64,000 nucleotides of DNA from Nocardioides conyzicola. GTDB taxonomy: Bacteria; Actinomycetota; Actinomycetes; Propionibacteriales; Nocardioidaceae. Shown in pieces: positions 2,715-53,998 of this stretch. Below the pieces are notes generated by a model. That model was not told the DNA's origin. It saw only the letters and a list, made by a program, of their open reading frames with translations, and did no database searches. Both the position numbers and the translations under genes were made by a program. The stretch is from the NCBI RefSeq assembly GCF_039543825.1, contig NZ_BAABKM010000002.1, positions 1,520,133 to 1,584,132 of the forward strand, in the 5' to 3' direction. Position 1 is the first letter of the stretch; each line of letters opens with the position of its first letter.

Positions 2715-3331
2715 CGGGTCGACTCCGCGTAGAGCGTGACCGCGTAGCCGTCCGTCGGCTCGAACGCGTCGCCGGTCCAGGTGCCGTAGCGCGCCACCGC
2801 GTCGAGGCCGAACGCGCCGAACGCGGCGTCCACGTCGTCGAGCGCGGTGGGCGGGCAGTCGCCCGGGAGATGGGCGGCGTCCAGCCCGTAGCCACAGACG
2901 ATCACCCCACCCGGGCTCAGGTGGTGCCCGAGCCGCTTGCACGCGTCATGCAGCGTGCCGGGCTCGAGCAGCGGGATGGTGTTGCCGGCGACCAGCACCA
3001 GGTCGAAGGTCTCCCCGAGGTCGAAGGTCGCGAGGTCGCCCTGCCGCCAGTCCAGGCCAGGGGCCTCGGCCCGCGCCTGCTCGAGCATCGACTCGTCCAC
3101 GTCGACCCCGACGACGTCGTACCCCAGCTCCGCCAGGCGTACGGCGACGCGCCCGGTGCCGCAGCCGGCGTCGAGGACCCGCGCCGGCGGTGCCAGCAGC
3201 CCGGCCACGAACGTCGCCTCGCCGTGGATGTCCGCGCCGCGCGCCGCCATCGCGCGGAACCGCTCGGCGTACGCCCGTGCGTAGTCGTCGCCCACGGTCT
3301 CGCGGGCGATCCGCTCCCAGCGGCTGGTCAT
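2711..3331 (-). CDS. Class I SAM-dependent methyltransferase
   Basis: Protein of 206 residues. Motif I VLDAGCGTGRVAVRLAELG (about residues 72-90) binds S-adenosylmethionine, GVDVDESMLEQAR supplies the acidic residue after beta-2, and FDLVLVAGNTIPLL is the motif at strand 4. The N-terminal helix with DDYARAYAERF is typical of small-molecule methyltransferases of the Methyltransf_25 group. The substrate cannot be deduced. It is the middle gene of a GTPase / methyltransferase / sirtuin set joined by 4-base overlaps at both ends. Confidence 0.85.
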   Translation of the reverse strand: MTSRWERIARETVGDDYARAYAERFRAMAARGADIHGEATFVAGLLAPPARVLDAGCGTGRVAVRLAELGYDVVGVDVDESMLEQARAEAPGLDWRQGDLATFDLGETFDLVLVAGNTIPLLEPGTLHDACKRLGHHLSPGGVIVCGYGLDAAHLPGDCPPTALDDVDAAFGAFGLDAVARYGTWTGDAFEPTDGYAVTLYAESTR

Positions 3332-6622: not shown

Positions 6623-7955
6623 GTGCGATGTCTTCCAGCAGGGGCGGCAGGTGGTGGGCACCCTCCCCGAAGGCGAAGACCGCCTCCCGCTCCGTCGCCG
6701 AGGCGGACACCCCGACCAGCTCGGGCCGGTGCACGAAGGGGTGGTCCTTCCAGTCCGGGTGCTCGCGCAGCAGCGACAGCGCCACCCGGCACTCGTCCGG
6801 CTCGCCGACGCACTCGAAGGGCTTCAGCAGGCCGTCGAGACCCAGCAGCTCCCGGAAGCCCTCGAGCTGGCTCTCGTCGGCGAACATGTCGCGGCCACCG
6901 AAGATCGCCAGCAGCTGCTCCTGGGACAGGAACGGCGCGAGGCACAGGAAGACGAACCGGCACTTCGGGCAGTCGGCGCACCACGACGTACGGTCCGTCT
7001 CCTGCAGCTTGAACGCGCGGTTGCAGCTGGTGAAGACCGGGTGGTAGTCGACGTGCTCCGCGAAGCGGCGCGCGATCCGGAGCTCGGTCAGGGGCCGGAG
7101 CAGGGAGAGGTACGCCGGCGCACCGGGCGGCAGGCAGCCGCGCAGCAGCGACTCGAACTCCAGGCTCTTGGACCACTGGTGGTTGACGACCCGGCCGTGC
7201 CACTCGACGTTGCCGTACGACGAGCTCGCCTCGTTGCTGAAGACCACGGTGTCGAAGCCGAGCGCCGCCGCCGTGAGGACCGCGAGCAGCGAGTTGACCG
7301 CCGTGACCGGCACATGCCCGTTGGGCGCGCCCTCGGCGTTGAGCTGGAAGAGCGTCGGGTCGAGCCGGCGCTGCACGGTCTCGAGCGCGATCCCGGCCAC
7401 CTCCGCGGTGCGGATGATCGGCGCGTAGCTGTTGACCGCGAAGAGCCCGATCTCGAGCCCGGCCGACCGGAGGGCCTCGATCGAGACGATGGAGTCCTTG
7501 CCGCCGCCGACGGCCACCAGGAAGCGGCTCGAGGCCTGCTCCGGCGCGGGCACGGGCGCCGGGTCCGCCAGCGAGGGCGCCACCACCGGGGTGTCGAAGA
7601 CCTCCGGCAGGTCGTTGACGTAGGCGAACTCGCCCATCCCGTGGCGCAGCAGGCCGACGAGGAAGTCCCGCTCGCGCTCGGTCAGGCCGCCCGGCACCGC
7701 GATCGAGGTGGGGGCGAAGGCCTTGAAGTAGCTCAGCGACGCGGCGAGCGACAGCAGCCGGAGCAGCGGGACCTGCACCGCGTCCGGGACCCCGTCGAGC
7801 GTGCCGGGCAGCTCGATCGTCTCCGTGAACTCGTGGACCGTCACGTCACCCGCCCTCGCGGCGTACCCGAGACGGATGCTGCGGCCCTCCACGACGGGTG
7901 CCTCGCACACGAGGTCGGTGACCCTCGACCGCTCCTCCGCGCGCACACCAGACAT
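6612..7955 (-). CDS. murL: UDP-N-acetylmuramoyl-L-alanyl-L-glutamate epimerase (MurL)
   Basis: Protein of 447 residues that I recognise as MurL, the enzyme first described in Xanthomonas that converts the terminal L-Glu of UDP-MurNAc-L-Ala-L-Glu to D-Glu with ATP. Family hallmarks are VGGGKDSIVSIEALR (about 149-163), an ATP-pyrophosphatase-like loop, GHVPVTAVNS, VFSNEASSSYGNVEWHG, VNHQWSKS, TSCNRAF, a Cys pair in WCADCPKCRFVF and KPFECVGE. The ATG at 7955 has GGGGGAC upstream; the longer frame to 8237 runs over the divergent DUF192 gene and is rejected. It is coupled to murD2. With this pair the cell may not need glutamate racemase for peptidoglycan. Confidence 0.9.
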   Translation of the reverse strand: MSGVRAEERSRVTDLVCEAPVVEGRSIRLGYAARAGDVTVHEFTETIELPGTLDGVPDAVQVPLLRLLSLAASLSYFKAFAPTSIAVPGGLTERERDFLVGLLRHGMGEFAYVNDLPEVFDTPVVAPSLADPAPVPAPEQASSRFLVAVGGGKDSIVSIEALRSAGLEIGLFAVNSYAPIIRTAEVAGIALETVQRRLDPTLFQLNAEGAPNGHVPVTAVNSLLAVLTAAALGFDTVVFSNEASSSYGNVEWHGRVVNHQWSKSLEFESLLRGCLPPGAPAYLSLLRPLTELRIARRFAEHVDYHPVFTSCNRAFKLQETDRTSWCADCPKCRFVFLCLAPFLSQEQLLAIFGGRDMFADESQLEGFRELLGLDGLLKPFECVGEPDECRVALSLLREHPDWKDHPFVHRPELVGVSASATEREAVFAFGEGAHHLPPLLEDIARAV

Positions 7956-40207: not shown

Positions 40208-43200
40208 TCAGGGGAGCAACAGAGGGGTCCACGCCGAGTCGGTGCCTCCGTCGCACGAGAGCGCGCGGGCGGACGTCAGGGCACATGACTTCGTGCCTCC
40301 TGGTACGTCGAGCAGCTCGAGACGTACGGCGTCGCTGGGAGCCCGGCCGTCCCGCCAGGTGGCCACCGCGACACCGACCCAGCCGGTACGCCGTCCCTCG
40401 GCCCCCAGCGCGGCCATGCCGACCCAGCCGCTGTGCAGGTCGACCACGCCCGTGATGCCGGCCACCGGGACCGGGGTGCTGGAGCTGCTGGTGAAGGTGC
40501 TGGGGAGGACCTGCGCGGCTCCGACGTAGCCCCAGCACATCACCGTGCCACCCGACCTACGGGCACAGGTGTGCATCCCGCCGGCGGCGACCTCGACGAC
40601 GTCGGTGAGACCGGCGACCGGCCGGGGGGTGGTCGACGACACGAGGGTGCCGTCGCCCAGCTGCCCGTCCGGGTTCTGACCCCAGCAGGAGACCGTGCCC
40701 GACCTCATCACCGCGCAGGTGTGCGCGTCGGGACCCGTGCTCGGAGCCGAGACGGACACCTGCACGGCGTCGCTGATCCCGCTCACCTGGACCGGGGTGG
40801 TCGACGACGCGGTCGAGCCCTGGCCCAGCTGTCCGGCGCCGCCGCGCCCCCAGCAGTCGATCCTGCCGCCTCTGAGCACCGCGCAGACGTGACGGCCGCC
40901 GACGTCGACCGAGACCGCGTCGCTGATCCCGGCCACCGTCACCGGCGTGGGAGAGCTGGTCGTCCCTCCGTTGCCGAGCTGACCCCAGGCGCCGTCGCCC
41001 CAGCAGACGACGGTGCCGCCGCGGCGTACGGCGCAGCTGGAGCCCGCGCCCGCGGAGACGGCGACGGCGTCGGTCAACCCCTGCACCCGCACCGGATCCT
41101 GCGACGTCGTGCTCGCGCCGTCCCCGAGCTGTCCATGGGTCCCGTCACCCCAGCACCAAACGGCACCACCCGCTCGCACCGCACAGAAGTGCGCGACACC
41201 GGCCGAGAAGTCGACGATGTCGGTCGCCGGTTGCCGGCCCAGGGACCCCCATGGGCCCCAGGTGTGGCTCCAGAAGATGAGGTCGCCGGACTCGAACCCC
41301 GCGCCGAGGGCCTTCAACCGGAACTTGCCACCGAGCGCGACGGCGGGCGTGACCTCCCAGCCGGTGTCGCCGCCGGGGTCGACGTCGGCCAGCGCCTTGG
41401 CGTCGAGCGCGGCCTGGGCGAACACGAGCGGCCCGTCGACGCCGACCAGGTTGAACGACAGCTCGGCGCGCAGCTTCAGCCCGCCCGTCAGCGCTCCGTT
41501 GAAGGTGTGCTCGGGCGTCAGCTCCGCGGGGTCGCCGCCGAACTCGGGGCGAGAGAACCCACCCTCCGGGGTCCACGCCACCTGAGCCCACGTGTTGAAG
41601 GACTGGTGCACCCCGACCGATGCGGTGGCGGCGAACCCGATGGAAGCGGTGGCGGTGGTGTCGAGCCGCGGCAGCACCGTCAGCGCGAAGGGTCCGGCGG
41701 GCACGACGAACGGCGGGAAGTGCACGGTGCCGAGGTGCGAAGAGGCCTCGCACTGCCCCTTGCCGGTCAGCGAGGCGTGCAGGTCCGCTTCCTCGGTGAT
41801 CTCGCCGCGCAGCGTCGCCTTCTTCAGCGCGAACAGCCCCCACTCGGCCTTCAGCGTCACCTTCGGCCGCACGTCCAGCTTGGCGCTGAGCTCGGCCGTG
41901 ACGTTGCCGTCGCAGCCGAGGGTGACGCCCTTCTTCGTTGCCTGGACGGAGGCGGCCCCGGTGGCGCGCGCCCTGATCTCCTTGCTGAGGATCGGTGGCA
42001 GGTAGCCGTCGTCGGTCGTCGCGTCCGCTCCGTCGAGCACCAGCTCCTGGAGCCCGTCGTCGATCGACCCGTCGCGGATCAGGTCCGCGAACGTGACGGA
42101 CCCGTCGACGTGGAGCCGGATGCTGCGCACCACGGTCCGGTAGTCGACGCCCCACAGCTGGCAGTCGACCTGGGTGATCGTGCCGAGAGCGCCGCGGTAG
42201 AGCTCGGCGATGGCGTCCGACGGCGGGAGCGCGATCCGGTCCCCGACCTGGGGGCAGGTGCGCGGGAGCCACCACGTGTCGGGCGTGTCGATGAGCCGCC
42301 CGACCGTGGTCGACCGAACGCGGTCCAGACGATGCCGGGCGGCGACGCCGGGCACCGGGAACGTCAGGTCGAACAGGCCGTCCTCGACGCGGTCCGCCGC
42401 GTAGGTGATCTGCTCGGGAGGGGCGACGGCGTTCGGGGCCTGGCGGAAGGAGTAGTCGACCTGGAGGACGACCGACTGCCCCCGCTGCAGATCGACCGAC
42501 TGGTCGGGCACGGTCGCACTCCAGTCGCCTCCGTCGTCGGCGATGCCGTCGGCCACGATCCGCCACGTGCCGGGACGAGCGGGACGGTACGTCGTGGTCT
42601 GGGAGATCAGCTCCTCGCCGAGCGGACCCGACACCGCGACCGCGGGCGTGGCACCCGCCGGCACGTTGACGACCTCGACGCGCACCTCGGCCGCCCCGGC
42701 GACGTCGACCTCGACGGTCCCGGACAGCGCCTGCAGGTAGCGCCCCCGCCCGGGGACCACGGCCCGGTAGCGCCAGCTCCCCGCCAGGGGCTCATGACCG
42801 AGAGCGAACGAGCCGTCGGCGGCCACCTTCGCCGTACCGGCGGCGAGCCACCTCGCATCGGGGTTCTGGTACTCCAGTCGCACCGAAGCACCGGAGCGCT
42901 TCGGCGAGGTCCTGCCCGCGAAGGCCACCCGCTCTCCCACGCTGATCTCGACCGGCCCGGCGGCGGCCAGCGTCACCTTCGGCTCGACCATCGACTGATA
43001 GGTGAACCGAGCCTTCCGGCTCACCTTGCTCGTCAGTCGCCCGGTCCGGACCCGGACCGCCACCATGCCCGCCTTGCCGGCCGGCGCGATCGCGACCACC
43101 CGTCTCTTCGAGACGTAGGTCGTCCTGACCTGGTGCTTGCCGAACAGCACGACGGACCGTCGGGTGAACCCGTGACCCTTGACGGTCACGCGGGTGCCCC

Positions 43201-43342
43201 CGACGGCGGCGCCCAGACGGGGGGAGACGCTCGTGACCGACGGCGTCACCGCCTTCTGCGGCTTCGCCGCAGACACCTCGGGCGAGACCCACGGCAGACC
43301 TAGCGCGCAGGACAGCGCCAGCAGCGTCACCAGTCGTCGCAT
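40208..43342 (-). CDS. Large secreted protein with IPT/TIG domain and C-terminal RCC1 repeats
   Basis: Protein of 1044 residues. Signal peptide MRRLVTLLALSCALGLPWVS..SA. An IPT/TIG module follows: SVTSVSPRLGAAVGGTRVTVKGHGF. Then come Ig-like segments and a long middle part. From about residue 695 to the end there are RCC1 repeats (HFCAVRAGGAVWCWGDGTHG and at least four more with C-x-W-G patterns) forming a beta-propeller. Cys pairs within repeats fit an exported disulfide-bonded protein. Function likely surface binding. The ATG 43342 has GGGGGG upstream. Confidence 0.8.
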   Translation of the reverse strand: MRRLVTLLALSCALGLPWVSPEVSAAKPQKAVTPSVTSVSPRLGAAVGGTRVTVKGHGFTRRSVVLFGKHQVRTTYVSKRRVVAIAPAGKAGMVAVRVRTGRLTSKVSRKARFTYQSMVEPKVTLAAAGPVEISVGERVAFAGRTSPKRSGASVRLEYQNPDARWLAAGTAKVAADGSFALGHEPLAGSWRYRAVVPGRGRYLQALSGTVEVDVAGAAEVRVEVVNVPAGATPAVAVSGPLGEELISQTTTYRPARPGTWRIVADGIADDGGDWSATVPDQSVDLQRGQSVVLQVDYSFRQAPNAVAPPEQITYAADRVEDGLFDLTFPVPGVAARHRLDRVRSTTVGRLIDTPDTWWLPRTCPQVGDRIALPPSDAIAELYRGALGTITQVDCQLWGVDYRTVVRSIRLHVDGSVTFADLIRDGSIDDGLQELVLDGADATTDDGYLPPILSKEIRARATGAASVQATKKGVTLGCDGNVTAELSAKLDVRPKVTLKAEWGLFALKKATLRGEITEEADLHASLTGKGQCEASSHLGTVHFPPFVVPAGPFALTVLPRLDTTATASIGFAATASVGVHQSFNTWAQVAWTPEGGFSRPEFGGDPAELTPEHTFNGALTGGLKLRAELSFNLVGVDGPLVFAQAALDAKALADVDPGGDTGWEVTPAVALGGKFRLKALGAGFESGDLIFWSHTWGPWGSLGRQPATDIVDFSAGVAHFCAVRAGGAVWCWGDGTHGQLGDGASTTSQDPVRVQGLTDAVAVSAGAGSSCAVRRGGTVVCWGDGAWGQLGNGGTTSSPTPVTVAGISDAVSVDVGGRHVCAVLRGGRIDCWGRGGAGQLGQGSTASSTTPVQVSGISDAVQVSVSAPSTGPDAHTCAVMRSGTVSCWGQNPDGQLGDGTLVSSTTPRPVAGLTDVVEVAAGGMHTCARRSGGTVMCWGYVGAAQVLPSTFTSSSSTPVPVAGITGVVDLHSGWVGMAALGAEGRRTGWVGVAVATWRDGRAPSDAVRLELLDVPGGTKSCALTSARALSCDGGTDSAWTPLLLP

Positions 43343-43429
43343 CGAACCCCCCAGCACCGGCCGACGGCCGTCGTCTGCGGGCAGACTAGCCACGCATCAG
43401 GGGTTCTCGCGCCGTTTCGCCGGCGCCGC

Positions 43430-44119
43430 TCACTCCGCCTGCGCGACCATCCCGGCGAGGTAGGTGGCGAAGCCGCCGGGCACCCGGCCCATGGTCCGCC
43501 CCGAGGTGCGCACCGAGGTCGCGGTCGTCCACCGGCACCCGGCATCGCGCATGGCCGCGACCAGCAGGACGTCCTCGTGCAGCCGAACCGGCCGCAGCCC
43601 GCCGGAGCGCGCGTACGCCGCCAGCGTGAAGGCCAGGTTGGCCCCGTGCACGTGCGCCTCGGGCCGGCGGTGCCGGTCGCGCCACCGGTCCAGCACGCCC
43701 GACGGCAGGTCGGCGGGGTCGGGGTCCACGGCGCCGACCACCAGGTCGAAGCCCGCGGACGCCAGGGCCCACAGGTCGACCAGCCATCGCTCCGGGACGA
43801 CGCAGTCCGCGTCGGTGCTGACGACGAGCACCCGCTCGGGAGGATGGCCCTCCGCCTGCGCGGCGACCCGCTCGACACCGGTGGCCCGGGCGACGCCCAC
43901 GCTGGTGGCGTCGACGGCCACGGTGTCGACGCCGTACGTCGCCGCGACGGCCGCGGTGCCGTCGGTGCACCCGTCGAGGACCACCGTGGTGCGCACGACG
44001 ACGCCCGGCAGGTCGGTCACGAGGGCGGTCGCTGCCGTGGCGACCGAGGCCAGGCAGGCGCCCAGCAGCTCCTCCTCGTCGTGGGCGGGCACGACGACGT
44101 GCACGACGTCGACGATCAT
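43430..44119 (-). CDS. Family 2 glycosyltransferase
   Basis: Protein of 229 residues with HVVVPAHDEEELLGACLASV at the N-terminus, LDGCTDGTAAVAA, and the DxD-like VSTDADCVVP that binds metal and sugar nucleotide, followed by VHGANLAFTLAAYARSGG and LHEDVLLVAAM, a GT-A fold. No membrane helices. Donor and acceptor unknown. Its ATG overlaps the stop of the PIG-L/methyltransferase gene (ATGA); it is the last gene of the three-gene set. Confidence 0.83.
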   Translation of the reverse strand: MIVDVVHVVVPAHDEEELLGACLASVATAATALVTDLPGVVVRTTVVLDGCTDGTAAVAATYGVDTVAVDATSVGVARATGVERVAAQAEGHPPERVLVVSTDADCVVPERWLVDLWALASAGFDLVVGAVDPDPADLPSGVLDRWRDRHRRPEAHVHGANLAFTLAAYARSGGLRPVRLHEDVLLVAAMRDAGCRWTTATSVRTSGRTMGRVPGGFATYLAGMVAQAE

Positions 44120-45450
44120 GCCGTCGGCTCCGGGAGGACGTCGCCGCCACCGAGCAGAACGATGTCGACGTCCCGGTCGCGGTAGGCCGCCTGCTCGGTC
44201 CACGGGCCGGCTCCGAACGCCCGCCGCACCGAGGTCGCGTCCGGCACCCAGCCGTCGATCCGGTGCCGCCAGTGGCACAGCAGCACCACGCCGGCCGGGG
44301 CCAACGAGCCGCGGATCCGCTCCACCAGGCCGCGGAGCCCGCTCGGGCTCAGGAAGTAGGCCATCTCGGAGACCACGACGAGGTCGAGCTGACCGTCCGG
44401 CCAGTCGTGCGGCACCTCCAGGGACTCGACCCGGACGTGCGGACGGTCGGCGAGCCGCGAGCGCGCGGCGTCGACGGCGGTGGGGCTGCTGTCCACGGCG
44501 ATCAGCTCGTCGCACCGGTCCGCGAGGCGCTCGGCCAGCGCACCGGTCGAGCAGCCGACCTCGAGGCCGCGGGCGAAGGTCCGGCGCGGCAGCATCGCCA
44601 GCGTGAGCTCGCGCTTGCGGCGCTCGTACCAGCGCTCGTCCACGCCCCACGGGTCCGGCTGCGCGCGGTGCAGGTCGTCGAGCGCGGTGTCCCGGCGCTG
44701 GTCGACGACGTAGACCTCGACCGACCCGTGGAAGTGGGCGAGGAAGCCGGGGTGCAGCAGCACCTCGTCACCCGGCTGCTCCGACAGCGGGAGCACCTGG
44801 GACGCGTGGGCGGCGATCGCCTGCTGCTTGCGCGACCGGGCCGCCACGGACAGGTCCAGCCGGCGCATCTCGCCCCACGGTGCGTCAGCGGGCGTGCCCC
44901 AGTGCCACCACCAGACGGGGTACTCGACCAGCGCGGCGTCGGTACGCCGGGCCGCGGTGGCCGCCGCCCGACCGGCCGCCTCGTGGTCGGGGTGACCGTC
45001 GTGCCGCCAGGGCGCGGCGACCAGGGTCCCCGCCCCGTCGCCGATCAGGTCGACGAGCCGGGCGGCGACGTCGGACTCGGCACCGGCCACCGACCCGTCC
45101 CCGAGCGCCATCCGGGTGAGCGCGGCGTGCGGGGCGACGGCGCGCAGGGCGTCCTTGGCCTCGTCGAGCCGTCGTTGTCCGAGGGCCTCGCGCGAGTGGG
45201 TGGGCGACGCGGGATGGCTGAGCTCGCCGGCCGTGAGCAGCACGAGGTCGATCTCGAGAGCGCGCTCGTGGGCGGTGGCCAGCAGGCCGCCGGCGCCCAG
45301 TGACTCGTCGTCCGGGTGCGCGGCGACGACCACCAGCCGGCGTACGCCGTCCAGCACCATCGGCTGCCGGTCCGTCCACCGCGGGTCCGACGACCAGACC
45401 TCCGCGGGGGTGCCGGTGCCGTCGTGGGTGAAGGCGGGGCGGGTCACCAT
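44116..45450 (-). CDS. Bifunctional PIG-L family deacetylase / class I methyltransferase
   Basis: Protein of 444 residues. Residues about 38-250 are a PIG-L (LmbE-like) zinc-dependent N-deacetylase: AHPDDE at 44-49, then WRHDGHPDHEAAGRAA with further metal ligands. Residues about 265-435 are a SAM-binding methyltransferase: RGLEVGCSTGALAERLADR, AVDSSPTAVDAARSRL and DLVVVSEMAYFLSPSGL, like the NodS group. The fusion suggests that one substrate is de-acetylated and then N-methylated. Coupled at both ends to the acyl-CoA-dehydrogenase-like gene and the glycosyltransferase. Confidence 0.88.
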   Translation of the reverse strand: MVTRPAFTHDGTGTPAEVWSSDPRWTDRQPMVLDGVRRLVVVAAHPDDESLGAGGLLATAHERALEIDLVLLTAGELSHPASPTHSREALGQRRLDEAKDALRAVAPHAALTRMALGDGSVAGAESDVAARLVDLIGDGAGTLVAAPWRHDGHPDHEAAGRAAATAARRTDAALVEYPVWWWHWGTPADAPWGEMRRLDLSVAARSRKQQAIAAHASQVLPLSEQPGDEVLLHPGFLAHFHGSVEVYVVDQRRDTALDDLHRAQPDPWGVDERWYERRKRELTLAMLPRRTFARGLEVGCSTGALAERLADRCDELIAVDSSPTAVDAARSRLADRPHVRVESLEVPHDWPDGQLDLVVVSEMAYFLSPSGLRGLVERIRGSLAPAGVVLLCHWRHRIDGWVPDATSVRRAFGAGPWTEQAAYRDRDVDIVLLGGGDVLPEPTA

Positions 45451-46457
45451 GGCGAGGTCTCCTGGACGAGGCGGCCGAGAGCGGCGGTGTCGCGCTCAGC
45501 GTGGTGCTGGCGGAGGTAGACGCGCAGGTCGGCGACCCGCGCGGCGTGCTCCTCCTCGGACGTCAGCGGCGCCGGACCGAGGGCGTGGTCGGCGGCGACC
45601 AGCACGGTCTCGGCGGAGTCGGCGACGACCTGGCGGACCCGCAGCGCGGTGAGGGCACCCGCGTCCCCACCGATCGTCCCGGCGTCCACGGCCTCGGCCG
45701 CGGCGAGCAGCACGGCCGCCGCGGCGGTGAGCGCCGCGTCGACCCGCCCGAGGTGCAGCTGCCCGACCTGGTCGAGGTCGCGCTCGGCTGCCTGCCGCCA
45801 GAGGCGTCGGGCGAGCCCGATGCTCGCGCCGTACCAGACGGCCGCGACGCCGATCCCGCCCCAGGCGAAGCCGTCGCGCCGGAGGTACCAGCCCGGCTCG
45901 CCGACCGGGGACGCCGCCACCGCGGTGAAGTCCACCGCCGTGCTGCGGACCCGGCTCAGCCCGCGCGAGACCCACGGCGCGTCGACGGGCGTCACGCCCG
46001 GCTGCCGCAGGTCGACCTCGAACAGCTGGCGCCGCTCGTCGTCGACCCAGGCGGTCACCAGCGCGTGGGTGAGGTCCGCGGCCAGCGAGCACCAGGGCTT
46101 GCGACCGGTCAGCGTGTGCTCGGCGTCCGCGGTCAGCCTCGCGCCCGGCGCCTCGGCGGCCCAGACCCCCCAGGTCCCGTCGCGTGGTTCGGCGAGGATG
46201 GCCAGCGCGTCGAGGTGCGGCTCCACCGCGCGGGCGACCGTCAGGTCGACGGCACCCAGCGTCGCGAGGGCCTCCCAGAGGTGCGTGGTCCGGCCGTGCC
46301 CCGGAGCCGGGAGCCGCTGTCCCCACCGCTGCGCGAGCTCGAGCGCACGCCGTACGTCGCCGCGGGCTGCGTCCGCCTCCACCGCCAGCGTGGTCAGCTC
46401 GTCGTCGGGGAGGTGGCCCGGCCGCAGCGTCGCGGCCGACGGCAGCGGCGGAGTCAT
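45444..46457 (-). CDS. Divergent acyl-CoA dehydrogenase-like flavoprotein
   Basis: Protein of 337 residues, shorter than typical acyl-CoA dehydrogenases (~380). Visible: DAARGDVRRALELAQRWG, WGVWAAEAPGARLTADAEHTLTGRKPWCSLA (the middle beta domain), LVTAWVDDERRQLFEVDL and the C-terminal four-helix part. The usual YEGT catalytic stretch is not seen; the end reads LRVYLRQHHAERDTAALGR instead. So it may oxidise or hydroxylate something other than an acyl-CoA. First of the coupled three-gene set. Confidence 0.72.
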   Translation of the reverse strand: MTPPLPSAATLRPGHLPDDELTTLAVEADAARGDVRRALELAQRWGQRLPAPGHGRTTHLWEALATLGAVDLTVARAVEPHLDALAILAEPRDGTWGVWAAEAPGARLTADAEHTLTGRKPWCSLAADLTHALVTAWVDDERRQLFEVDLRQPGVTPVDAPWVSRGLSRVRSTAVDFTAVAASPVGEPGWYLRRDGFAWGGIGVAAVWYGASIGLARRLWRQAAERDLDQVGQLHLGRVDAALTAAAAVLLAAAEAVDAGTIGGDAGALTALRVRQVVADSAETVLVAADHALGPAPLTSEEEHAARVADLRVYLRQHHAERDTAALGRLVQETSPW

Positions 46458-46608: not shown

Positions 46609-47667
46609 TCAGGTTGGTTGCACCTGGTCGCTGGTGCCCGGCACCTCGCGGACCCGGTACCCGACGCCGAACACCTGGATCCGGCCGTTGCCGGAGAGGA
46701 GGCCCCACAGCCCGCGCGGGAGAAGCAGCACGACGGCGATGGCGACCACGCCGAGCAGCACCAGGTACCACGAGCCGTAGTCCGCAAGCTCCTGCTCGAG
46801 GACGAAGAAGACCACCGCTCCGATGATCGGCCCCTCGATGCTGCCCAGGCCTCCGATGACGACGATGAAGATCATGAACGCGGAGTAGTTGACCGAGTAG
46901 ATCGAGTCAGGTGAGACGCGCAACGAGTTGAGGGCGATCAACGCCCCGGCCATGCCGGCTCCCGCCGACGCGGCGACGTACACGATCCGGCGGCTGCGGT
47001 TCACCCGCACGCCGAGGCTCGACGCGGCGGTCGCGTTGTCGCGGATCGCCGTCAGGCCGAGCCCCAGTCGGCTGCGCATCACCAGGTAGGTCCCGAGGAC
47101 GACGAGCACCATGAGTACGAGGGCTGTCCAGTAGACCTGGGCCACCCGGTCCACGCGGTCGACGCCGCTGAAGGCCGTCAGCGAGAGCCCCGACCCGCCC
47201 CCGAGTGCGTCGATCTGGGTCGTCGCGAGCTTGAAGACCTCCGCGACGACCCAGGTCCCGATCGCGAAGTAGCCGCCTGCGAGACGGAAGAGGAGGAACG
47301 ACGTGGGAAGCGCCAGCAGCGCGCACACGACGCCCGCGAGCGGGACAGAGACGAGGAGGGGGATCCCGACGGTGTCCGCGAGGTAGATGACGCCGTACCC
47401 GCCCGCACCGATGAAAGCCTGCTGCCCGATCGAGATCATGCCGCCGTACCCGGCCATCAGGTTCCAGGTCACCGCGAGGATCACGAGGACGAAGAGCCCG
47501 ACCAGGTTCGACAGCGTGCCGAGGTCGACGTGGTAGGGCACCCAACCGGCCAGCACCAGGACCGCGACGGCGACGAAGGCACCACCGACGTACGAGCTCG
47601 TGCTGCCTCGGCGCACCCGGATCGTCGGCACCTCGCGGAGAGTGCTGGCGCTGGGACTGGTCGTCAT
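46609..47667 (-). CDS. livM: ABC transporter permease, branched-chain amino acid type (LivM-like)
   Basis: Protein of 352 residues with about ten hydrophobic segments. LivM signature TWNLMAGYGGMISIGQQAFIGAGGYGV near 70-96, EAA-like loop TAIRDNATAASSLGVRVNRSRRIVYV and GGLGSIEGPIIGAVVFF. The start at 47667 overlaps livH (ATGA). Last gene of the aromatic operon; the system probably imports an aromatic acid or phenol rather than an amino acid, because it is coupled to ring-cleavage genes. Confidence 0.88.
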   Translation of the reverse strand: MTTSPSASTLREVPTIRVRRGSTSSYVGGAFVAVAVLVLAGWVPYHVDLGTLSNLVGLFVLVILAVTWNLMAGYGGMISIGQQAFIGAGGYGVIYLADTVGIPLLVSVPLAGVVCALLALPTSFLLFRLAGGYFAIGTWVVAEVFKLATTQIDALGGGSGLSLTAFSGVDRVDRVAQVYWTALVLMVLVVLGTYLVMRSRLGLGLTAIRDNATAASSLGVRVNRSRRIVYVAASAGAGMAGALIALNSLRVSPDSIYSVNYSAFMIFIVVIGGLGSIEGPIIGAVVFFVLEQELADYGSWYLVLLGVVAIAVVLLLPRGLWGLLSGNGRIQVFGVGYRVREVPGTSDQVQPT

Positions 47668-48533
47668 GCGATCGCCACCTTCGGCATCAGGCCGCTGGGG
47701 CGGAGGAGCAGGACGGCGAGGAACACCAGGTGGCCGGCGAGGATCCCGTACGCCGGATCCACCTGCGCGCCGATCGTCTGGGCGACGCCGAGCACCAGGC
47801 CGCCCACGAGCGTGCCCCACAGTGATCCGAGGCCGCCGATGATGACCGCTTCGAAGGCGAAGATCAGGACCATGTCGCCGTACGTCGGGGAGAACTGCGT
47901 GCTCATCCCGAGGAAGACGCCGGCCAGGGCCACCGTCGCGATGGCGATCGCCGTGGCGAGCGCGTAGACGTGCCGGTTGTCGATCCCCATCAGCGTGGCT
48001 GCGTCCGGGTCGTCGCTGGTGGCGCGCATGGCGCGTCCCGTCCTGGTCCGCGCCAGGAAGACCTGAACCGCACCGATGACCGCGACCCCGACGGCGAACG
48101 TCAGCACGGAGAACGTCCCGACCGCCAGCCCACCCCCGAGCGCGACGCTGTCGGTGCCCAGCGAGCCGATCTGGATGCTGCGGGAGTTGGCGCTGAACTG
48201 CTCCTGCAGGAGGTTCGCGGCAATGACCGCGACGCCGAAGGAGACCATCAACGGACTGAGCTCGCCATGGGCGAGCGCGAAGTTGAACAGGCCTCGCTGG
48301 AGCACGTATCCGACCAGGGCGAACACCGGGATCACGACGACCAGAGCCGCGAACGGCGGGATGTCGACCTGCTGGAGGACCCAGTACGCCGCGTATGCGG
48401 CCGCCACGGCGAGCACGCCGTGCGCGAGGTTGACGATGCGCATGACTCCGAAGATCAGGGAGAGCCCGCAGGCGAGCAGCGCGTACTGCCCGCCGAGCAG
48501 GATTCCCTGGATCACCGCGTTGACCCACTCCAT
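47664..48533 (-). CDS. livH: ABC transporter permease, branched-chain amino acid type (LivH-like)
   Basis: Protein of 289 residues, mainly helices. LivH pattern VIQGILLGGQYALLACGLSLIFGVMRIVNLAHG at the N-terminus, the ARTRTGRAMRATSDDPDAATLMGID loop for the ATPases and IIGGLGSLWGTLVGGLVLGV. ATG 48533 has GAGGA upstream; longer frame rejected. Partner of LivM. Confidence 0.9.
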   Translation of the reverse strand: MEWVNAVIQGILLGGQYALLACGLSLIFGVMRIVNLAHGVLAVAAAYAAYWVLQQVDIPPFAALVVVIPVFALVGYVLQRGLFNFALAHGELSPLMVSFGVAVIAANLLQEQFSANSRSIQIGSLGTDSVALGGGLAVGTFSVLTFAVGVAVIGAVQVFLARTRTGRAMRATSDDPDAATLMGIDNRHVYALATAIAIATVALAGVFLGMSTQFSPTYGDMVLIFAFEAVIIGGLGSLWGTLVGGLVLGVAQTIGAQVDPAYGILAGHLVFLAVLLLRPSGLMPKVAIA

Positions 48534-48543
48534 CAGGTGTTCC

Positions 48544-49245
48544 TCACAGTCCGAAGTAGGCGTCGGCGACCTGCTGGCGACTGATGTCCGCCACCGGTCC
48601 TTCGAGGACGGTGCGTCCTTCGAGCAGGCACTGGACCCGGTCCGCCACCGCCAGCGCATGGCCGAGGTCCTGCTCGACCAGGAGCACCGTCGTGCCACGA
48701 CCGGTGATCTGCGGCAGGGCCTGGTAGATCTCGCCGACGACGACCGGCGCCAGGCCCAGGGACACCTCGTCCAGCATCAGCAGGCGCGGGTTGGACATCA
48801 GGGCACGACCGATGGCGGCGGCCTGCTGCTCGCCGCCGGAGAGGTGGCCACCCATCCGAGCGCGGCGGTCCGAGACCAACGGGAACAGGTCGTAGACCGA
48901 CTGCAGGTTCCACGGTCCGGGCCGCTGTCCGTAGCTGCCGACGAGGAGGTTCTCCTCGACCGTCAGTGACGGGAAGATGCGTCGACCCTCCGGGGTCAGC
49001 GCCACGCCCTGGGTGACGCGGCGGTGTGCGGAGACCCCGTCGATCCGCTCGCCGGCGAACCGGATCTCGCCGGACGTCGGCCGGACCAGGCCCGCGATGG
49101 TCTTGAGCAAGGTCGACTTGCCCGCACCGTTGGCGCCGATCACCGCCAGCGTCTCGCCCTCGTCGAGAGAGACCGAGAGCCCGTACAACGCCTGGAAGTC
49201 GCCGTAGTGGGCGTCGACAGCGTCGACCTCGAGGAGCCCGGTCAC
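48544..49245 (-). CDS. livF: ABC transporter ATP-binding protein (LivF-like)
   Basis: ATPase of 233 residues. Walker A GANGAGKST (about 37-45), signature LSGGEQQAAAIGRALMSNPRLLMLDE with Walker B, and the H-loop VEQDLGHAL. The typical LivF stretch LTPEGRRIFPSLTVEENL is present. Begins with GTG overlapping the livG stop (GTGA). Confidence 0.93.
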   Translation of the reverse strand: MTGLLEVDAVDAHYGDFQALYGLSVSLDEGETLAVIGANGAGKSTLLKTIAGLVRPTSGEIRFAGERIDGVSAHRRVTQGVALTPEGRRIFPSLTVEENLLVGSYGQRPGPWNLQSVYDLFPLVSDRRARMGGHLSGGEQQAAAIGRALMSNPRLLMLDEVSLGLAPVVVGEIYQALPQITGRGTTVLLVEQDLGHALAVADRVQCLLEGRTVLEGPVADISRQQVADAYFGL

Positions 49246-49982
49246 GGGACCACCTCCGCGGGCGAGCCGAGGTAGACCTCGAACACGCGCGGATCAGCCA
49301 TCACGTCGGCGGGATCGCCGATCGCGACGACCTCGCCTGCGGCGATGCACATCAGCTCGTCGACCACCGCCATCAGCGCGTGCACGATGTGCTCGATCCA
49401 CACCACGGCCAGCCCGTCGTCGCGGAGCCCCGCGATGACGTCGACCAGAGCGGGCAGCTCCCGCTCAGTCAGGCCACCGGCGATCTCGTCGAGCAGGATC
49501 AGCCGCGGCGAGGTCGCCAGCGCCCGGGCAAGCTCGAGCCGCTTGCGGTCGAGCAGGCGTAGCGATCCGGCCCGGGTCCCGGCGAGGTGCGCCAGGCCTG
49601 TCCTCACGAGGGCGTCGTAGGCCTGCTCGTGGGCGGCGCTCCCACGAGCACCACCCGCGAACCTGGCTCCGACCAACACGTTCTCGAAGACGGTCATGCC
49701 GCCGAACGGTCGCGGGATCTGGTAGCTGCGCCCGATCCCGATCTCGCTTCGCCGAGCGGCACCCACCCTGGTGACGTCCGCGCCGTCGAACGCGATGGTG
49801 CCCGAGTCGCTCGGCAGCGTGCCGTTGATCAGGTTGAGCAGGGTCGACTTGCCGGCTCCGTTGGGCCCGACGATCCCCAGGGCGCGTCCCGCCGGCACTT
49901 CGAAGGTCACGTCCGACGCTGTCACCACCCTGCCGAACCGTTTGCTCAGTCCGGAGACGCTCAAGAGAGCCGGCGTCGTCAT
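49242..49982 (-). CDS. livG: ABC transporter ATP-binding protein (LivG-like)
   Basis: ATPase of 246 residues. Walker A GPNGAGKST, LivG-type GIGRSYQIPRPFGGMTVFENVLVG, Walker B ATSPRLILLDEIAGGL and IEHIVHALMAVVDELM. The signature motif is degenerate: instead of LSGGQ it reads LRLLDRKRLELARALA, as in many LivG proteins. ATG at 49982 overlaps the stop of the binding-protein gene in TGATG. Confidence 0.9.
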   Translation of the reverse strand: MTTPALLSVSGLSKRFGRVVTASDVTFEVPAGRALGIVGPNGAGKSTLLNLINGTLPSDSGTIAFDGADVTRVGAARRSEIGIGRSYQIPRPFGGMTVFENVLVGARFAGGARGSAAHEQAYDALVRTGLAHLAGTRAGSLRLLDRKRLELARALATSPRLILLDEIAGGLTERELPALVDVIAGLRDDGLAVVWIEHIVHALMAVVDELMCIAAGEVVAIGDPADVMADPRVFEVYLGSPAEVVP

Positions 49983-51247
49983 CAGTTCAGGGTCTCCACC
50001 GAGCCACCCAGCGGGACGTCGGACGCCAGCGTGTTGGACACGACGACGAGGTCGAACGGGTGGTCCTGGTTGACCAGGCGCCACTGACCACCCGTGAGCG
50101 GCGTCTTGGCGACGTACGGCGGCAGGCCCTCGGCGCCCCACTCGACAGGACCGACGACCGTGTCGACCTTCAGGCTGCCGAGCGCCGCGGTGATGTCGTC
50201 GGCGTCCGTCGAGCCCGCCTTCTCGACCGCCGCCGCAGCGACCTCGAACAGCGCGTGGGAGAAGCCGAGCGGCTGGGTCCACTGCCGGTCCGTCGACTTC
50301 TCGTACGCGTCCGCGAGCTGCTGGGAGGAGTCCCCGGTCAGCGAGCTCTTGAACGGCGACGTCGGGTGCCACCACACCTCGGTGCCGAGGTTGTTCGCGG
50401 TGTCGCCGATGCCTTCGACCACCGAGGGGAACAGCAACGCCTTGCCGATCGTGGCGATCTTCGGCCGGTAGCCCTGCTGGATCGCCTGCTTCCAGAACGT
50501 CGTGAAGTCCGGCGGGATCGGGACGCCCATCAGGATGTCGTCGCCCTTCATCTTGGCGATCTGCGCCGAGAAGTCCTTGGTGCCGTTGGGGTACAGGCCG
50601 GGATTGTCGATCGTGACGCCGGAGTCCTTGACGAGCGTCGGGAAGTTCGCGCTCCAGGCCTCGCCGTCAGGGTCGTTCGGGAAGAGGCCCGCCGCCTTCT
50701 TGTTGGTCTCGACCTGGCTCCACATGTCGCTGTAGACGGCAGCCACGTCCTCGAGGCCCCAGAAGAAGTGGTACGTGTACTTCAGGTCGGCGGGCGTGTC
50801 CCCGCCCTCGCGGAAGGCGACGGTCTGCCAGGGGGCGACGGTGGTGATGCACGGCACGGAGTTGGCCTCGCACTGCTCGGAGACCGGGTTGACGATGTCG
50901 GGCGTGGACGAGGCGAGGATCAGGTCGGCGTCGTCGCTGTTGATGAGGTCAGAGGCCACCTCACCGGCGCGGGTCGAGTCCGACTGCGCGTCCTTCAGGA
51001 TGATCTTGACCTCGACGTCCTTGCCGTCGACGGTCAACGGGTTGTCGGCGAAGTAGGCCTTCATCTGGTCGACGACGAACGAGTCGGCCTCGCCGAAGGG
51101 CGCCAGAGGGCCGGTCTGGGGTGACACGTAGCCGATCGTGAGGGTGGAGGTGTCGCCTTCGCTCGAGCCGCCGACGTCGCCGCCGCACGCCGAGGTGGCC
51201 AGCACCAGGGCGGCCACGGAGGTCAATCCAAGGTAGGACTTCTTCAT
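49982..51247 (-). CDS. ABC transporter substrate-binding lipoprotein (LivK-like)
   Basis: Protein of 421 residues with a lipoprotein signal ending T-S-A-C (Cys21) and the type I periplasmic-binding fold: TLTIGYVSPQTGPLAPFGEADSF, ILKDAQSDSTRAGEVASDLI, GLFPNDPDGEAW and DDITAALGSLKVDTVVGPVEWG. This family binds branched-chain amino acids, amides or aromatic acids. The gene is 28 bases after the monooxygenase and coupled to the rest of the importer, so an aromatic substrate is inferred. AGGAG precedes the ATG. Confidence 0.88.
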   Translation of the reverse strand: MKKSYLGLTSVAALVLATSACGGDVGGSSEGDTSTLTIGYVSPQTGPLAPFGEADSFVVDQMKAYFADNPLTVDGKDVEVKIILKDAQSDSTRAGEVASDLINSDDADLILASSTPDIVNPVSEQCEANSVPCITTVAPWQTVAFREGGDTPADLKYTYHFFWGLEDVAAVYSDMWSQVETNKKAAGLFPNDPDGEAWSANFPTLVKDSGVTIDNPGLYPNGTKDFSAQIAKMKGDDILMGVPIPPDFTTFWKQAIQQGYRPKIATIGKALLFPSVVEGIGDTANNLGTEVWWHPTSPFKSSLTGDSSQQLADAYEKSTDRQWTQPLGFSHALFEVAAAAVEKAGSTDADDITAALGSLKVDTVVGPVEWGAEGLPPYVAKTPLTGGQWRLVNQDHPFDLVVVSNTLASDVPLGGSVETLN

Positions 51248-51275: not shown

Positions 51276-53099
51276 TCAGCGGGCGAGGACGCCGCGCAGG
51301 GCCTGGACGAGCGCGGCGGCCGGATCCTCGGCTGCGCTGTGCGAACGCCAGCCGACGTGGGCGTCAGGACGGACCAGCACGCAGCCGTCCTCGGCCACCT
51401 CGCGGAGCCGGGCCCAGTCGTCGTAGAGATCGGCGTAGTCGGCCTTGGGGCCGATCACGTAGGCACGAACATCGATCCCGAGCTCGACGGCCGCCTTGTG
51501 GGCGGCCTCGACCCAGGGGTGACCCGTCACCCCGGTGAGCAGCGTGAAGCCGCCCTTGCCGGCAAGGTCGTGGGTGCTGACCTGTCGGCCCTTGTCCCCG
51601 AGCCAGCAGTGCGGCAACCGGGCGCCGGGCCAGGTGGTCGCGTGGTAGTACAGCTCGGGGTCGCGCGTGTACGCCGGCTCCGGGGTCCCGTCCTTCACCA
51701 CGGCTGCGGAGTCGTAGCGCTGTCCGAGCTCGACGCCGAGGGCGTTGAACTCGTAGTCCTTCAGCTCGAGTGCCTCGCGCAGAGCGGCGCGCTTGACGAC
51801 GCCCTCCGGGGAGTCGTCGGCCAGGCCGTCGATCCCGGCCTGCATCTGCTCGACGTTCTGCGAGGTGTCCTCGAGGCCGAGCGCCTCGAGGATCGCGCCG
51901 AACTCCTCGATGCTCTTGTTGGCCCTGAGCACGATCTGCTTGCCGACCGGCGCTCGTTCGTCGTCGAAGGTGTCGAGCAGGGCTTCCCCTGCGAGCTCTT
52001 TGAGGACGTAGGCGAGCTTCCAGGCGAGGTTGTAGGAGTCCTGGATGGAGGTGTTGGACCCGAGCCCGTTCGACGGTGGGTGCCGGTGCACGGCGTCGCC
52101 GACGCCGAAGACCCGGCCCTCGCGATAGCGCTCGGCATACATCTTGTTGTTGCCCCACAGCGACAGGGACCTGATGGTGACCGGAACGGAGCTGTCGCCG
52201 ATCAGGTTGTGCACGATCTGGATGGCCATCTCGTCGTCGAGGTCCGGTGGCGGCTGGTTGATGTCGTAGCCCCAGGTGATCAGCCACTCGTCCCACGGGC
52301 GGACCATCCGGATCAGGCCGAGGCCGATGCCGCCGATCGTCGCTCCGGGCTGCAGGACCCAGTAGAGGACGCTCGGGCGGTGCCCGACGAACTCGGTCAG
52401 GTCCGCGTGGAAGACGATGTTCATGCTGCCCGCGACGTCCATCTGGCCGGCCATCGGCAGACCCAGGTCGCTCACGACCTTGCTCCGCCCGCCGTCGGCG
52501 GCGATCACGTACCGGGCGCGGATGCGGAACTCGTGACCCGACAGCCGGTCGAGGACGGTGACGGTGACGCCGTCGTCGTCCTGCTCCAGGCTGACGTACT
52601 CGGTGTCGAAGCGGATCCGGCTGCCCCGGGAGGCCGCGTGCCCGATCAGGATCGGCTCGAACAGGGTCTGCGGCAGGTCGCAGTTCATCGACGGGCTGGC
52701 CATCCGGTAGTCAGCCTCGCGCACCGGGTGCGTTCCCCACGTGCGGATGCGACCGATCTCGTCGCCGGCAAGGCTGCTGCAGAAGACCGTGTCGCCCATC
52801 ATCTCGTGAGGCGTCGCCTCGTCGATGATGTCCTGCTCGATCCCCATGTCGCGCATGATCTCGACGGTGCGCTGGTTGGTGATGTGCGCGCGAGGGGTGT
52901 TGGCGGTCCAGCGGTACTTGGTGATCACCAGGTGGTCGACGCCGTACGTCGCGAGGAACAGCGCCGCGGAGGCGCCGGCCGGACCGCTCCCGATGATGAG
53001 GACGTCGGTGTGCAGGTCCTCCTCGCGCTCGCCGTCGATGCCGGAGAGCGATCCCGGGTGACGGGGGCTGGTCTCGTGCTCGAGTGCCGGGTCGGTCAT
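51276..53099 (-). CDS. FAD-dependent aromatic monooxygenase, TfdB / phenol hydroxylase-like
   Basis: Protein of 607 residues. FAD-binding GSGPAG at 37-42, then the stretch NTPRAHITNQRTVEIMRDMG very like 2,4-dichlorophenol hydroxylase (TfdB), SVLYWVLQPGATIGGIGLGLIRM, and GVGDAVHRHPPSNGLGSNTSIQD (second FAD motif), plus a C-terminal thioredoxin-like domain. It would hydroxylate a phenol next to an existing OH with NAD(P)H. With the hydroxyquinol-type dioxygenase and maleylacetate reductase, resorcinol to hydroxyquinol is the likely reaction; the exact substrate is inferred. It overlaps the dioxygenase stop in ATGA. Confidence 0.85.
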   Translation of the reverse strand: MTDPALEHETSPRHPGSLSGIDGEREEDLHTDVLIIGSGPAGASAALFLATYGVDHLVITKYRWTANTPRAHITNQRTVEIMRDMGIEQDIIDEATPHEMMGDTVFCSSLAGDEIGRIRTWGTHPVREADYRMASPSMNCDLPQTLFEPILIGHAASRGSRIRFDTEYVSLEQDDDGVTVTVLDRLSGHEFRIRARYVIAADGGRSKVVSDLGLPMAGQMDVAGSMNIVFHADLTEFVGHRPSVLYWVLQPGATIGGIGLGLIRMVRPWDEWLITWGYDINQPPPDLDDEMAIQIVHNLIGDSSVPVTIRSLSLWGNNKMYAERYREGRVFGVGDAVHRHPPSNGLGSNTSIQDSYNLAWKLAYVLKELAGEALLDTFDDERAPVGKQIVLRANKSIEEFGAILEALGLEDTSQNVEQMQAGIDGLADDSPEGVVKRAALREALELKDYEFNALGVELGQRYDSAAVVKDGTPEPAYTRDPELYYHATTWPGARLPHCWLGDKGRQVSTHDLAGKGGFTLLTGVTGHPWVEAAHKAAVELGIDVRAYVIGPKADYADLYDDWARLREVAEDGCVLVRPDAHVGWRSHSAAEDPAAALVQALRGVLAR

Positions 53100-53998
53100 G
53101 CCTGCTCCTCGTTCTGGCCCTCGGTGCTGAGGACGACGTCGAACTCGGCGCGGGTCCAGGAGCCCTGGATCTCGCGCCCGGTCGGGTTGGGGGTGCCCGC
53201 GGGCTGCTCCACGAAGTCGACGACGAGGGACTCCTTGACACCGAAGACGGCGTCGCTGTCCTGGTAGGCGTCTCCGCGCACGAAGATGTGGGTCACCAGC
53301 CGGTGGTGGTCGTCGGCAGTGACCATGAAGTGCAGGTGGGCCGCCCGCATGGGTCCGCGGCCGGCCGCCGTGAGGAGGTCTCCGACCGGGCCGTCGTGCG
53401 GGATCGGGTACGGCGTCGGGGTGACGCCCCAGAACCCGTAGCGTCCGAGCTCGTCGGTGAAGAGGTGACCGCGGCCCTGCGTGCGGTCGTCGGGGTGCTG
53501 GACGTCGTACATGCCGTCGTCGTCGGCTTCCCACACGTCGAGTCGCGCGTCCGCGAGCGGTGTTCCGTCGGTCGAGGTCACCGTGCCGGAGACCCAGCAG
53601 GGCTGGCCGGTCGCACCCTGGGCGATGTCGCCACCGATCTCGATGCGCGGCGACCCGTCGACGAAGAAGGGCCCGAAGACCGTCGCCTCCGTGGCCAGCG
53701 GGTCGGGCGGCTGGTTGACCGCGATGGTCAGCATCGAGATGCCCAGCACGTCGGACAGCAGGATGAACTCCTGCCGCCTGTCGTCCGTGATGTCACCGGC
53801 GCGCTTGAGGAAGTCGATGCCGTCCTCCCATTCGCGCTCCGTGAGTCGCACCTCGCGCACGAAATCGTGAGCGTGGCGCACCAGGCTCTCCATCAGTTCG
53901 CGGAACCGGGGTGTGGTCGCACCGGCGAAGCTGGCGAGCACCTGGTCGGTCACGTACTCCTCGCGCGCGGCCTGCTCGGTCTCCTCGGAGACGTTCAC
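53096..53998 (-). CDS. Intradiol ring-cleavage dioxygenase, probably hydroxyquinol 1,2-dioxygenase
   Basis: Protein of 300 residues. Fe(III) ligands appear to be Tyr164 (DGMYDVQ), Tyr197 (TPTPYPIP), His221 and His223 (RAAHLHFMV). The N-terminal helical domain with TPRFRELMESLVRHAHDFVREVRLTEREWEDGI is typical of catechol/hydroxyquinol 1,2-dioxygenases. The product would be maleylacetate if the substrate is hydroxyquinol, matching the adjacent reductase. Catechol or chlorocatechol activity cannot be excluded. GTG start overlaps the reductase stop (GTGA). Confidence 0.9.
   Translation of the reverse strand: MNVSEETEQAAREEYVTDQVLASFAGATTPRFRELMESLVRHAHDFVREVRLTEREWEDGIDFLKRAGDITDDRRQEFILLSDVLGISMLTIAVNQPPDPLATEATVFGPFFVDGSPRIEIGGDIAQGATGQPCWVSGTVTSTDGTPLADARLDVWEADDDGMYDVQHPDDRTQGRGHLFTDELGRYGFWGVTPTPYPIPHDGPVGDLLTAAGRGPMRAAHLHFMVTADDHHRLVTHIFVRGDAYQDSDAVFGVKESLVVDFVEQPAGTPNPTGREIQGSWTRAEFDVVLSTEGQNEEQA

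Follow-up and report, generated by a model that had tools for sequence, protein, structure and literature searches.

A conserved gene cassette of Nocardioides and other bacteria that may produce an N-methylated amino-sugar metabolite under general stress

The genome of Nocardioides conyzicola includes, within a stretch of 64,000 nucleotides (contig NZ_BAABKM010000002.1, positions 1,520,133 to 1,584,132; hereafter the window), three overlapping genes that encode a flavoprotein related to acyl-CoA dehydrogenases (ACAD), a fusion of a PIG-L de-N-acetylase with a NodS-like S-adenosylmethionine (SAM) methyltransferase (MT), and a small stand-alone glycosyltransferase (GT) of family 2 (GT2). Our reading of this module, which we regard as quite possible if somewhat short of probable, is that it represents a conserved four-enzyme cassette, with two of the enzymes fused in Nocardioides, for the synthesis of a single small N-methylated amino-sugar metabolite that is probably soluble and is produced mainly under conditions of general stress.

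The enzyme classes predict an N-methyl amino sugar, and the pathway would run as follows. The GT2 would transfer N-acetylhexosamine (HexNAc), probably N-acetylglucosamine (GlcNAc) from UDP-GlcNAc, onto an acceptor; the PIG-L domain would strip the acetyl group from the HexNAc; the fused NodS-like domain would methylate the freed amine; and the product would be oxidized by the ACAD-fold flavoprotein, in which the acyl-CoA catalytic base is missing; this enzyme, instead of being an acyl-CoA dehydrogenase, would most likely act as a flavin mononucleotide (FMN)-type monooxygenase or oxidase, for example, at the nitrogen. The order of these steps is provisional, and the Nocardioides copy presumably serves the same purpose as those of its relatives. 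The maintenance of the set across phyla and its tie to stress genes imply a common metabolite that is apparently undescribed as far as we searched. A broader version of the proposal, which appears somewhat unlikely, is that an N-methylated and perhaps N-oxidized amino-sugar glycoside, as yet undescribed, is a stress metabolite common to bacteria from three or more phyla; the cassette would make it together with trehalose, catalase and Dps and would pass between bacteria on plasmids, and the product would constitute a new class of protectant or redox compound.

Linkage of the four parts

The genome_contigs collection was searched with the ACAD-like profile alone; at least 594 stretches matched, of which at least 572 could be confirmed; the 80 best, all of them from Actinomycetota, were used. 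All four parts (ACAD, PIG-L, MT and GT) lie within 6 kb of each other in 75 of these 80 loci, and in a 76th (L080) the contig ends before the GT. A common strand and the order ACAD-PIGL-MT-GT are shared by 72 loci, and the PIG-L and MT matches fall within one open frame in 76. The module is linked far beyond chance. The protein distances are correlated across the 75 loci (r 0.68-0.73), a figure that comes with no background and is not used here as evidence. A match to the fusion protein (E up to 1e-30, single-domain matches included) is present in 55 of the 293 genomes of the order and in 40/396 of the phylum.

In a genus that is presumably Mycobacterium (that of genome G330; its loci are called Mycobacterium-like below), the ACAD-like protein is found in 47 of 78 genomes. 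With the window proteins as queries, the arrangement GT-ACAD-PIGL-MT was recovered in 24 of the 30 loci fetched and, with queries from the genus itself, all four parts were detected in 28/36; two loci (L247 and L258) are truncated where their contigs end, and three (L251, L268 and L269) are incomplete within short loci.

The preliminary description of this region had noted three genes overlapping by 4-7 bases, and the overlaps indeed amount to 7 bases between the ACAD-like gene and the fusion (45444-45450) and 4 bases between the fusion and the GT gene (44116-44119). It also proposed a survey for the same gene order across genomes, holding that homologous sets scattered without linkage would speak against a joint role. 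The survey supports one unit, and scattering is not the rule, although solitary and partial copies exist (see below). The idea that the genes act together on one molecule is accordingly upheld as regards co-inheritance, the joint product itself being a prediction.

Module versions are present in named Actinomycetota, Pseudomonadota and Cyanobacteriota, some of them on plasmids. Among plasmid sequences, 35 records contain an ACAD match (19 from Acinetobacter, 3 of which were read), and 17 loci were examined. Nine of these, from Comamonas, Pandoraea, Acinetobacter, Legionella and Kitasatospora, encode all four parts. Three sphingomonad loci combine ACAD-PIGL-MT with a preceding longer, related GT2 (E 3e-6 to 2e-19 against the module GTs), in the Nostoc locus ACAD-PIGL-MT is accompanied by a GT in reverse orientation, three Cupriavidus loci have no PIG-L next to the module genes (in one of them, a PIG-L is annotated farther upstream, past a catalase), and the Methylobacterium locus has the ACAD alone.

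Side observations on these loci concern individual copies. In the Acinetobacter soli plasmid (L061, about 6070-6950), counted among the complete nine, the ACAD looks broken because it is matched in two pieces and is unannotated. In an A. baumannii plasmid record (L157), predicted genes for resistance to aminoglycosides and chloramphenicol are found at a distance of about 5 kb from the module. In four loci from one other actinobacterial family (L050, L055, L056 and L058), a similar MT is found beside a strongly diverged ACAD-like protein (29-31% identical), with no PIG-L or GT seen in the short locus; this is perhaps a module variant. A phage origin of the module was considered and set aside: just two phage records, both labeled Acinetobacter phage MD-2021a (305 and 232 kb), encode the PIG-L and MT pair, and our guess is that these records are more plasmid-like than phage-like.

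The PIG-L, methyltransferase and glycosyltransferase parts

The PIG-L domain is recognized by Pfam at 81.2 bits (cut-off 28.2), and the metal-binding and catalytic residues H45, P46, D47, D48, E49, D151, H153, D155 and H156 are invariant in 26 sequences, with variation at G152 and P154. Its relatives in the Protein Data Bank (PDB), TT1542, diacetylchitobiose deacetylase, MshB and BshB, are amino-sugar deacetylases. Some relatives (e.g. G151, G291, G238 and G115) encode a second, stand-alone PIG-L that is about 50% identical to the domain of the fusion.

The MT domain matches Pfam NodS at 57.1 bits (cut-off 24) and scores 75.8 bits with the NCBIfam NodS equivalog, well under its cut-off of 300; that this cut-off is not reached indicates that the domain may work like NodS without being classified as NodS. 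Among PDB structures, the orphan 4isc is matched best (E 4e-55), NodS 3ofj comes second (E 6e-27), and phosphoethanolamine N-methyltransferases follow; the gentamicin N-methyltransferase is matched more weakly. The 4isc protein, listed as 'Methyltransferase', belongs to the same family as the MT domain; the PDB entry gives no function, and no paper on 4ISC was found among the open-access papers searched. A second, weaker NodS-domain match (26.2 bits) is present in the window on the minus strand, at about 2888-3184. As for a defense role, the sole match was that of the MT to mads_2, which covers the MT fold common to both (E 1e-13), and this candidate was rejected.

The GT matches Glycos_transf_2 at 40.2 bits (cut-off 23.3) and retains both the DxD and the ED motifs: D103, A104, D105 and E182 are invariant in 25 sequences, and D183 is nearly so. 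All 25 GT members match TIGR04283, with the one in the window at 24.7 of 182 bits. With the PIG-L and GT motifs intact, and with N-methyltransferases as the nearest characterized relatives of the MT, the enzyme types initially assigned, namely, N-deacetylation, N-methylation and glycosyl transfer, are all sustained.

The ACAD-like protein

In the ACAD-like protein, the Pfam middle and C-terminal ACAD domains score 22 and 19.6 bits, respectively, both short of their cut-offs of 33.3 and 22.4. Homology with ACADs is nevertheless clear from profile-profile comparison by hhalign (Prob 99, E 7e-17), in which 16 members of the ACAD superfamily encoded in the same genome served as the reference. In this alignment, the YEGT stretch is absent, as originally noted, and the column of the catalytic glutamate is occupied by H318 of RQHH; across the family, this position is H, S or W, with F in 1 of 17 sequences (L049). 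The RxxFG and GGxG stretches form the flavin adenine dinucleotide (FAD) site of acyl-CoA dehydrogenases. In the same alignment, a deletion spans the former, and GPAP stands in place of GGYG. The RQHHAERD sequence, which had been taken for an unusual end of the protein, turned out to be a conserved signature of the family in two alignments (A1 and A5), with Q317 invariant and H319 and D323 conserved at 90% or more in A1, and it occupies the site where true ACADs have the catalytic glutamate.

The ACAD homologs DszC, SfnB and nitrososynthases such as DnmZ perform other flavin chemistry. Searched against the PDB, the A1 profile retrieves CarC (E 1e-10), cyclohexanecarboxyl-CoA dehydrogenase (2e-10) and DszC (4e-10) at about equal significance, and the weak matches of the ACAD-like profile include DnmZ and a nitrososynthase. 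NCBIfam SfnB is matched weakly by 10 of 16 A1 members and DszC by 1 of 16, with neither matched by the protein in the window. The CS motif aligns with DszC, in a match that spans the N-terminal and middle domains only; compared with DszC, a chain of 417 aa, the ACAD-like protein is 80 residues shorter and has a C-terminal signature of its own. The cassette contains no flavin reductase, and in the plasmid loci read the annotation places none next to the module; ACAD-fold flavin monooxygenases can draw on a general flavin reductase. The missing FAD motifs may point to FMN as the cofactor. If this reading is true, the enzyme would be a new use of the ACAD fold.

The alternative that the protein is a true acyl-CoA dehydrogenase that supplies an acyl chain for the sugar amine appears highly unlikely. 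It would fit the slightly greater proximity of A1 to CarC and cyclohexanecarboxyl-CoA dehydrogenase than to DszC and the clearer preference of A5 (see below), but the catalytic position is not glutamate, the cassette includes no acyltransferase, and an N-methylated amine is a poor acyl acceptor.

Stress-gene neighborhood

Clustering of the genes around the best 80 loci yielded recurring genes for catalase (13 loci), Dps (11) and Hsp20 (9), named from sequence, and stress genes occur in 39 of these 80 discovery loci. The clustered genes, together with proteins annotated near plasmid copies, provided the stress queries, of which 18 of 26 were counted. Module-centered regions of 20 kb (one of 16.5 kb) were compared with control regions located 50-200 kb away on the same contigs. 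Genes for catalase, Dps, Hsp20, Usp, PA2169-like proteins or PPK2 are present in 13 of 40 module-centered regions and in 0 of 40 controls (Fisher test, 7.6e-5); when the 7 regions shared with the discovery set are dropped, 9 of 33 remain (p 4e-4). The queries that were not counted include a zinc alcohol dehydrogenase (10 module-centered regions against 2 controls) and a LuxR-type regulator (6 against 0). The stress association was missed in the preliminary description because it is not visible in the window.

On plasmids, OtsA or OtsB homologs are found in 5 of the 17 loci, and catalase also in 5 of 17, the loci that supplied queries being included in these counts (one, in the case of the OtsA and OtsB homologs); in two Comamonas, the order is otsA-ACAD-PIGL-MT-GT-otsB, and in Legionella lytica, otsB and a GH65 gene lie upstream of the module. 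These genes would also be expected if the cassette modified trehalose or a trehalose-like disaccharide into an N-methylated amino-disaccharide osmoprotectant. This is an unlikely scenario given that no OtsA or OtsB homolog was detected in the 40 module-centered actinobacterial regions or in the 80 genome_contigs loci, and common stress regulation alone would account for the ots adjacency.

SigF-like promoter sites

The published SigF boxes, GTTT and GGGTA, were allowed at most one mismatch each, with spacers of 15-17 chosen in this analysis. A SigF-like site lies within 100 bases upstream of the module GT in 28 of 31 Mycobacterium-like loci, compared with 8% of 8038 background windows; the 31 loci, which remain after 5 of 36 without a GT match were dropped, are mutually related. 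A pattern refined after looking at these sites is found in 27 of the 31, with 0.38 expected.

The M. smegmatis gene MSMEG_1097, a group 2 glycosyl transferase by annotation, is sharply lower in the sigF mutant (log2 -5.63/-5.01; PMC4694148 Table 1) and has the site GTGT-N15-GGGTT 11 bases from the start (PMC4694148). It is up (1.5, p 0.002; PMC5445863 Appendix Table 5) in cells from log phase that had been cycled through spray drying and stands at -6.5 in a zinc-homeostasis data set, with its Rv and MAP columns blank (PMC7174638). In L270, from a 6.8-Mb genome of the Mycobacterium-like genus, the module is located at 1.095 Mb, and GTGT-N15-GGTTA precedes the GT start by about 11 bases. By annotation, promoter and map position, MSMEG_1097 would be the GT of the module. 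A whole-word search of the open-access papers covered produced no mention of MSMEG_1094 to 1096; passages of PMC13130816 and PMC12029717 are about other genes, and the texts of PMC7693655 and PMC7390352 contain no match to the search terms.

Relationship to known pathways

The preliminary description knew of no characterized pathway with this set, and we likewise found no paper on it among the open-access papers searched, in which subscription journals are mostly not represented. The Nod factor pathway employs the deacetylase NodB, the N-methyltransferase NodS and the glycosyltransferase NodC. The module resembles Nod factor tailoring in the deacetylation and subsequent N-methylation of GlcNAc made by a GT2, and in the Pfam NodS match of its MT, but differs in having PIG-L in place of NodB, a small GT2 and the extra ACAD-like enzyme.

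In the mycothiol and bacillithiol pathways (MshA/MshB and BshA/BshB), a glycosyltransferase is similarly followed by a PIG-L deacetylase with a related domain, and the N-methyl-bacillithiol pathway adds an N-methyltransferase. This shared logic, together with the catalase and Dps neighbors, raises the alternative of a low-molecular-weight thiol or antioxidant cofactor akin to mycothiol or N-methyl-bacillithiol. We find it quite improbable: the cassette includes no cysteine ligase, the BshB and MshB equivalog scores (53.8, 53.4 and 17.8 bits) do not reach the cut-offs (182.5, 195.25 and 224.35), and BshA belongs to glycosyltransferase family 4, whereas the module enzyme is a GT2. Thus, despite similar chemistry, the cassette is without the defining partners of the Nod factor and thiol-cofactor pathways.

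Decoration of a cell-surface glycolipid or polysaccharide, close to one of the products originally envisaged, is another improbable alternative. The GT2 family membership, the weak similarity to ArnC, DPM and polysaccharide glycosyltransferases, and the extra glycosyltransferases ahead of the module in Novosphingobium are compatible with such a role, but the gene set of the window contains no exporter, polymerase or lipid carrier gene, and the flanking ATP-binding cassette (ABC) transporter, which includes a periplasmic binding protein, belongs to the branched-chain amino-acid type. For a glycolipid product in particular, no support was found.

Weighing the amino-sugar proposal

Several observations weigh against a stress-related N-methylated amino-sugar metabolite as the product of the cassette. 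With respect to the enzymes, the donor sugar is a guess, and true ACADs are closer (3.9e-8) than DszC (3.5e-5) to the actinobacterial profile A5, a preference that leaves room for dehydrogenase chemistry. With respect to linkage, two of the best 80 loci lack the GT (L084 and L089), one has ACAD and MT only (L066) and one ACAD only (L091). In three of six 15-kb regions from the Mycobacterium-like genus (L272, L273 and L274), the ACAD, 81-83% identical to one from a complete module of the same genus, stands alone, the other three parts not being found within about 7 kb. The set is thus usually, not always, complete; these loci weaken the claim that the parts are always together, not that they usually are.

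With respect to stress, 27 of the 40 module-centered regions contain no stress gene, the query set was picked after the module neighborhoods had been viewed, and related genomes are not independent. The window contains none of the stress genes of the query set, apart from a match to the LuxR-type regulator about 27 kb away, and the neighbors of the module there are the branched-chain amino-acid-type ABC transporter and an RCC1-repeat protein. Among 119 loci, mostly from Nocardioides and Micrococcales, strict SigF/SigB-type sites ahead of the module are rare (2/119, with 0.1 expected), and the relaxed pattern occurs in 7 (3.3 to 6.7 expected); no EcfG-type site precedes the module in 4 alphaproteobacterial loci. 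The equation of MSMEG_1097 with the module GT is indirect, and MSMEG_1094 to 1096 are absent from the text of the sigF paper (PMC4694148). Support for the stress role accordingly comes from gene neighborhoods in two phyla and from the promoter sites of a single genus, and from nothing in the window itself.

The locus in the window

The features of the module and its surroundings are listed in Table 1. The GT starts at the ATG at 44119, overlapping the stop of the fusion; the start at 44650 in the list of open reading frames makes it too long. No second copy of the ACAD-like protein was detected in its own genome (1 match only at E up to 0.01), and Rfam gave no match at gathering thresholds. 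The large protein downstream of the GT is probably secreted and separate from the module. A protein of the FAD-binding aromatic-ring hydroxylase type (PF01494, PF21274) is encoded on the minus strand at 51276-53534, upstream of the ABC transporter operon. The nearest named relative of the ACAD-like protein, among the matches listed, is from Nocardioides sp. PD653-B2 (77% identical).

Table 1. Features of the module and its neighborhood, in window coordinates
Feature	Position	Strand	Size or remarks
ACAD-like flavoprotein, module gene 1	45444-46457	minus	337 aa
PIG-L/methyltransferase fusion	44116-45450	minus	444 aa
PIG-L de-N-acetylase domain of the fusion, residues 1-258	44677-45450	minus	Pfam PIG-L; motifs HPDDE (45-49), DGHPDH (151-156)
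NodS-like SAM methyltransferase domain of the fusion, about residues 256-444	44116-44685	minus	Pfam NodS, PDB 4isc/3ofj
Small stand-alone family 2 glycosyltransferase	43430-44119	minus	229 aa; DAD 103-105, ED 182-183
Branched-chain-amino-acid-type ABC transporter operon, including periplasmic binding protein	46609-51247		upstream of the module; Pfam
Large protein with TIG domain and RCC1 repeats	40208-43393	minus	36 bases downstream of the GT, same strand

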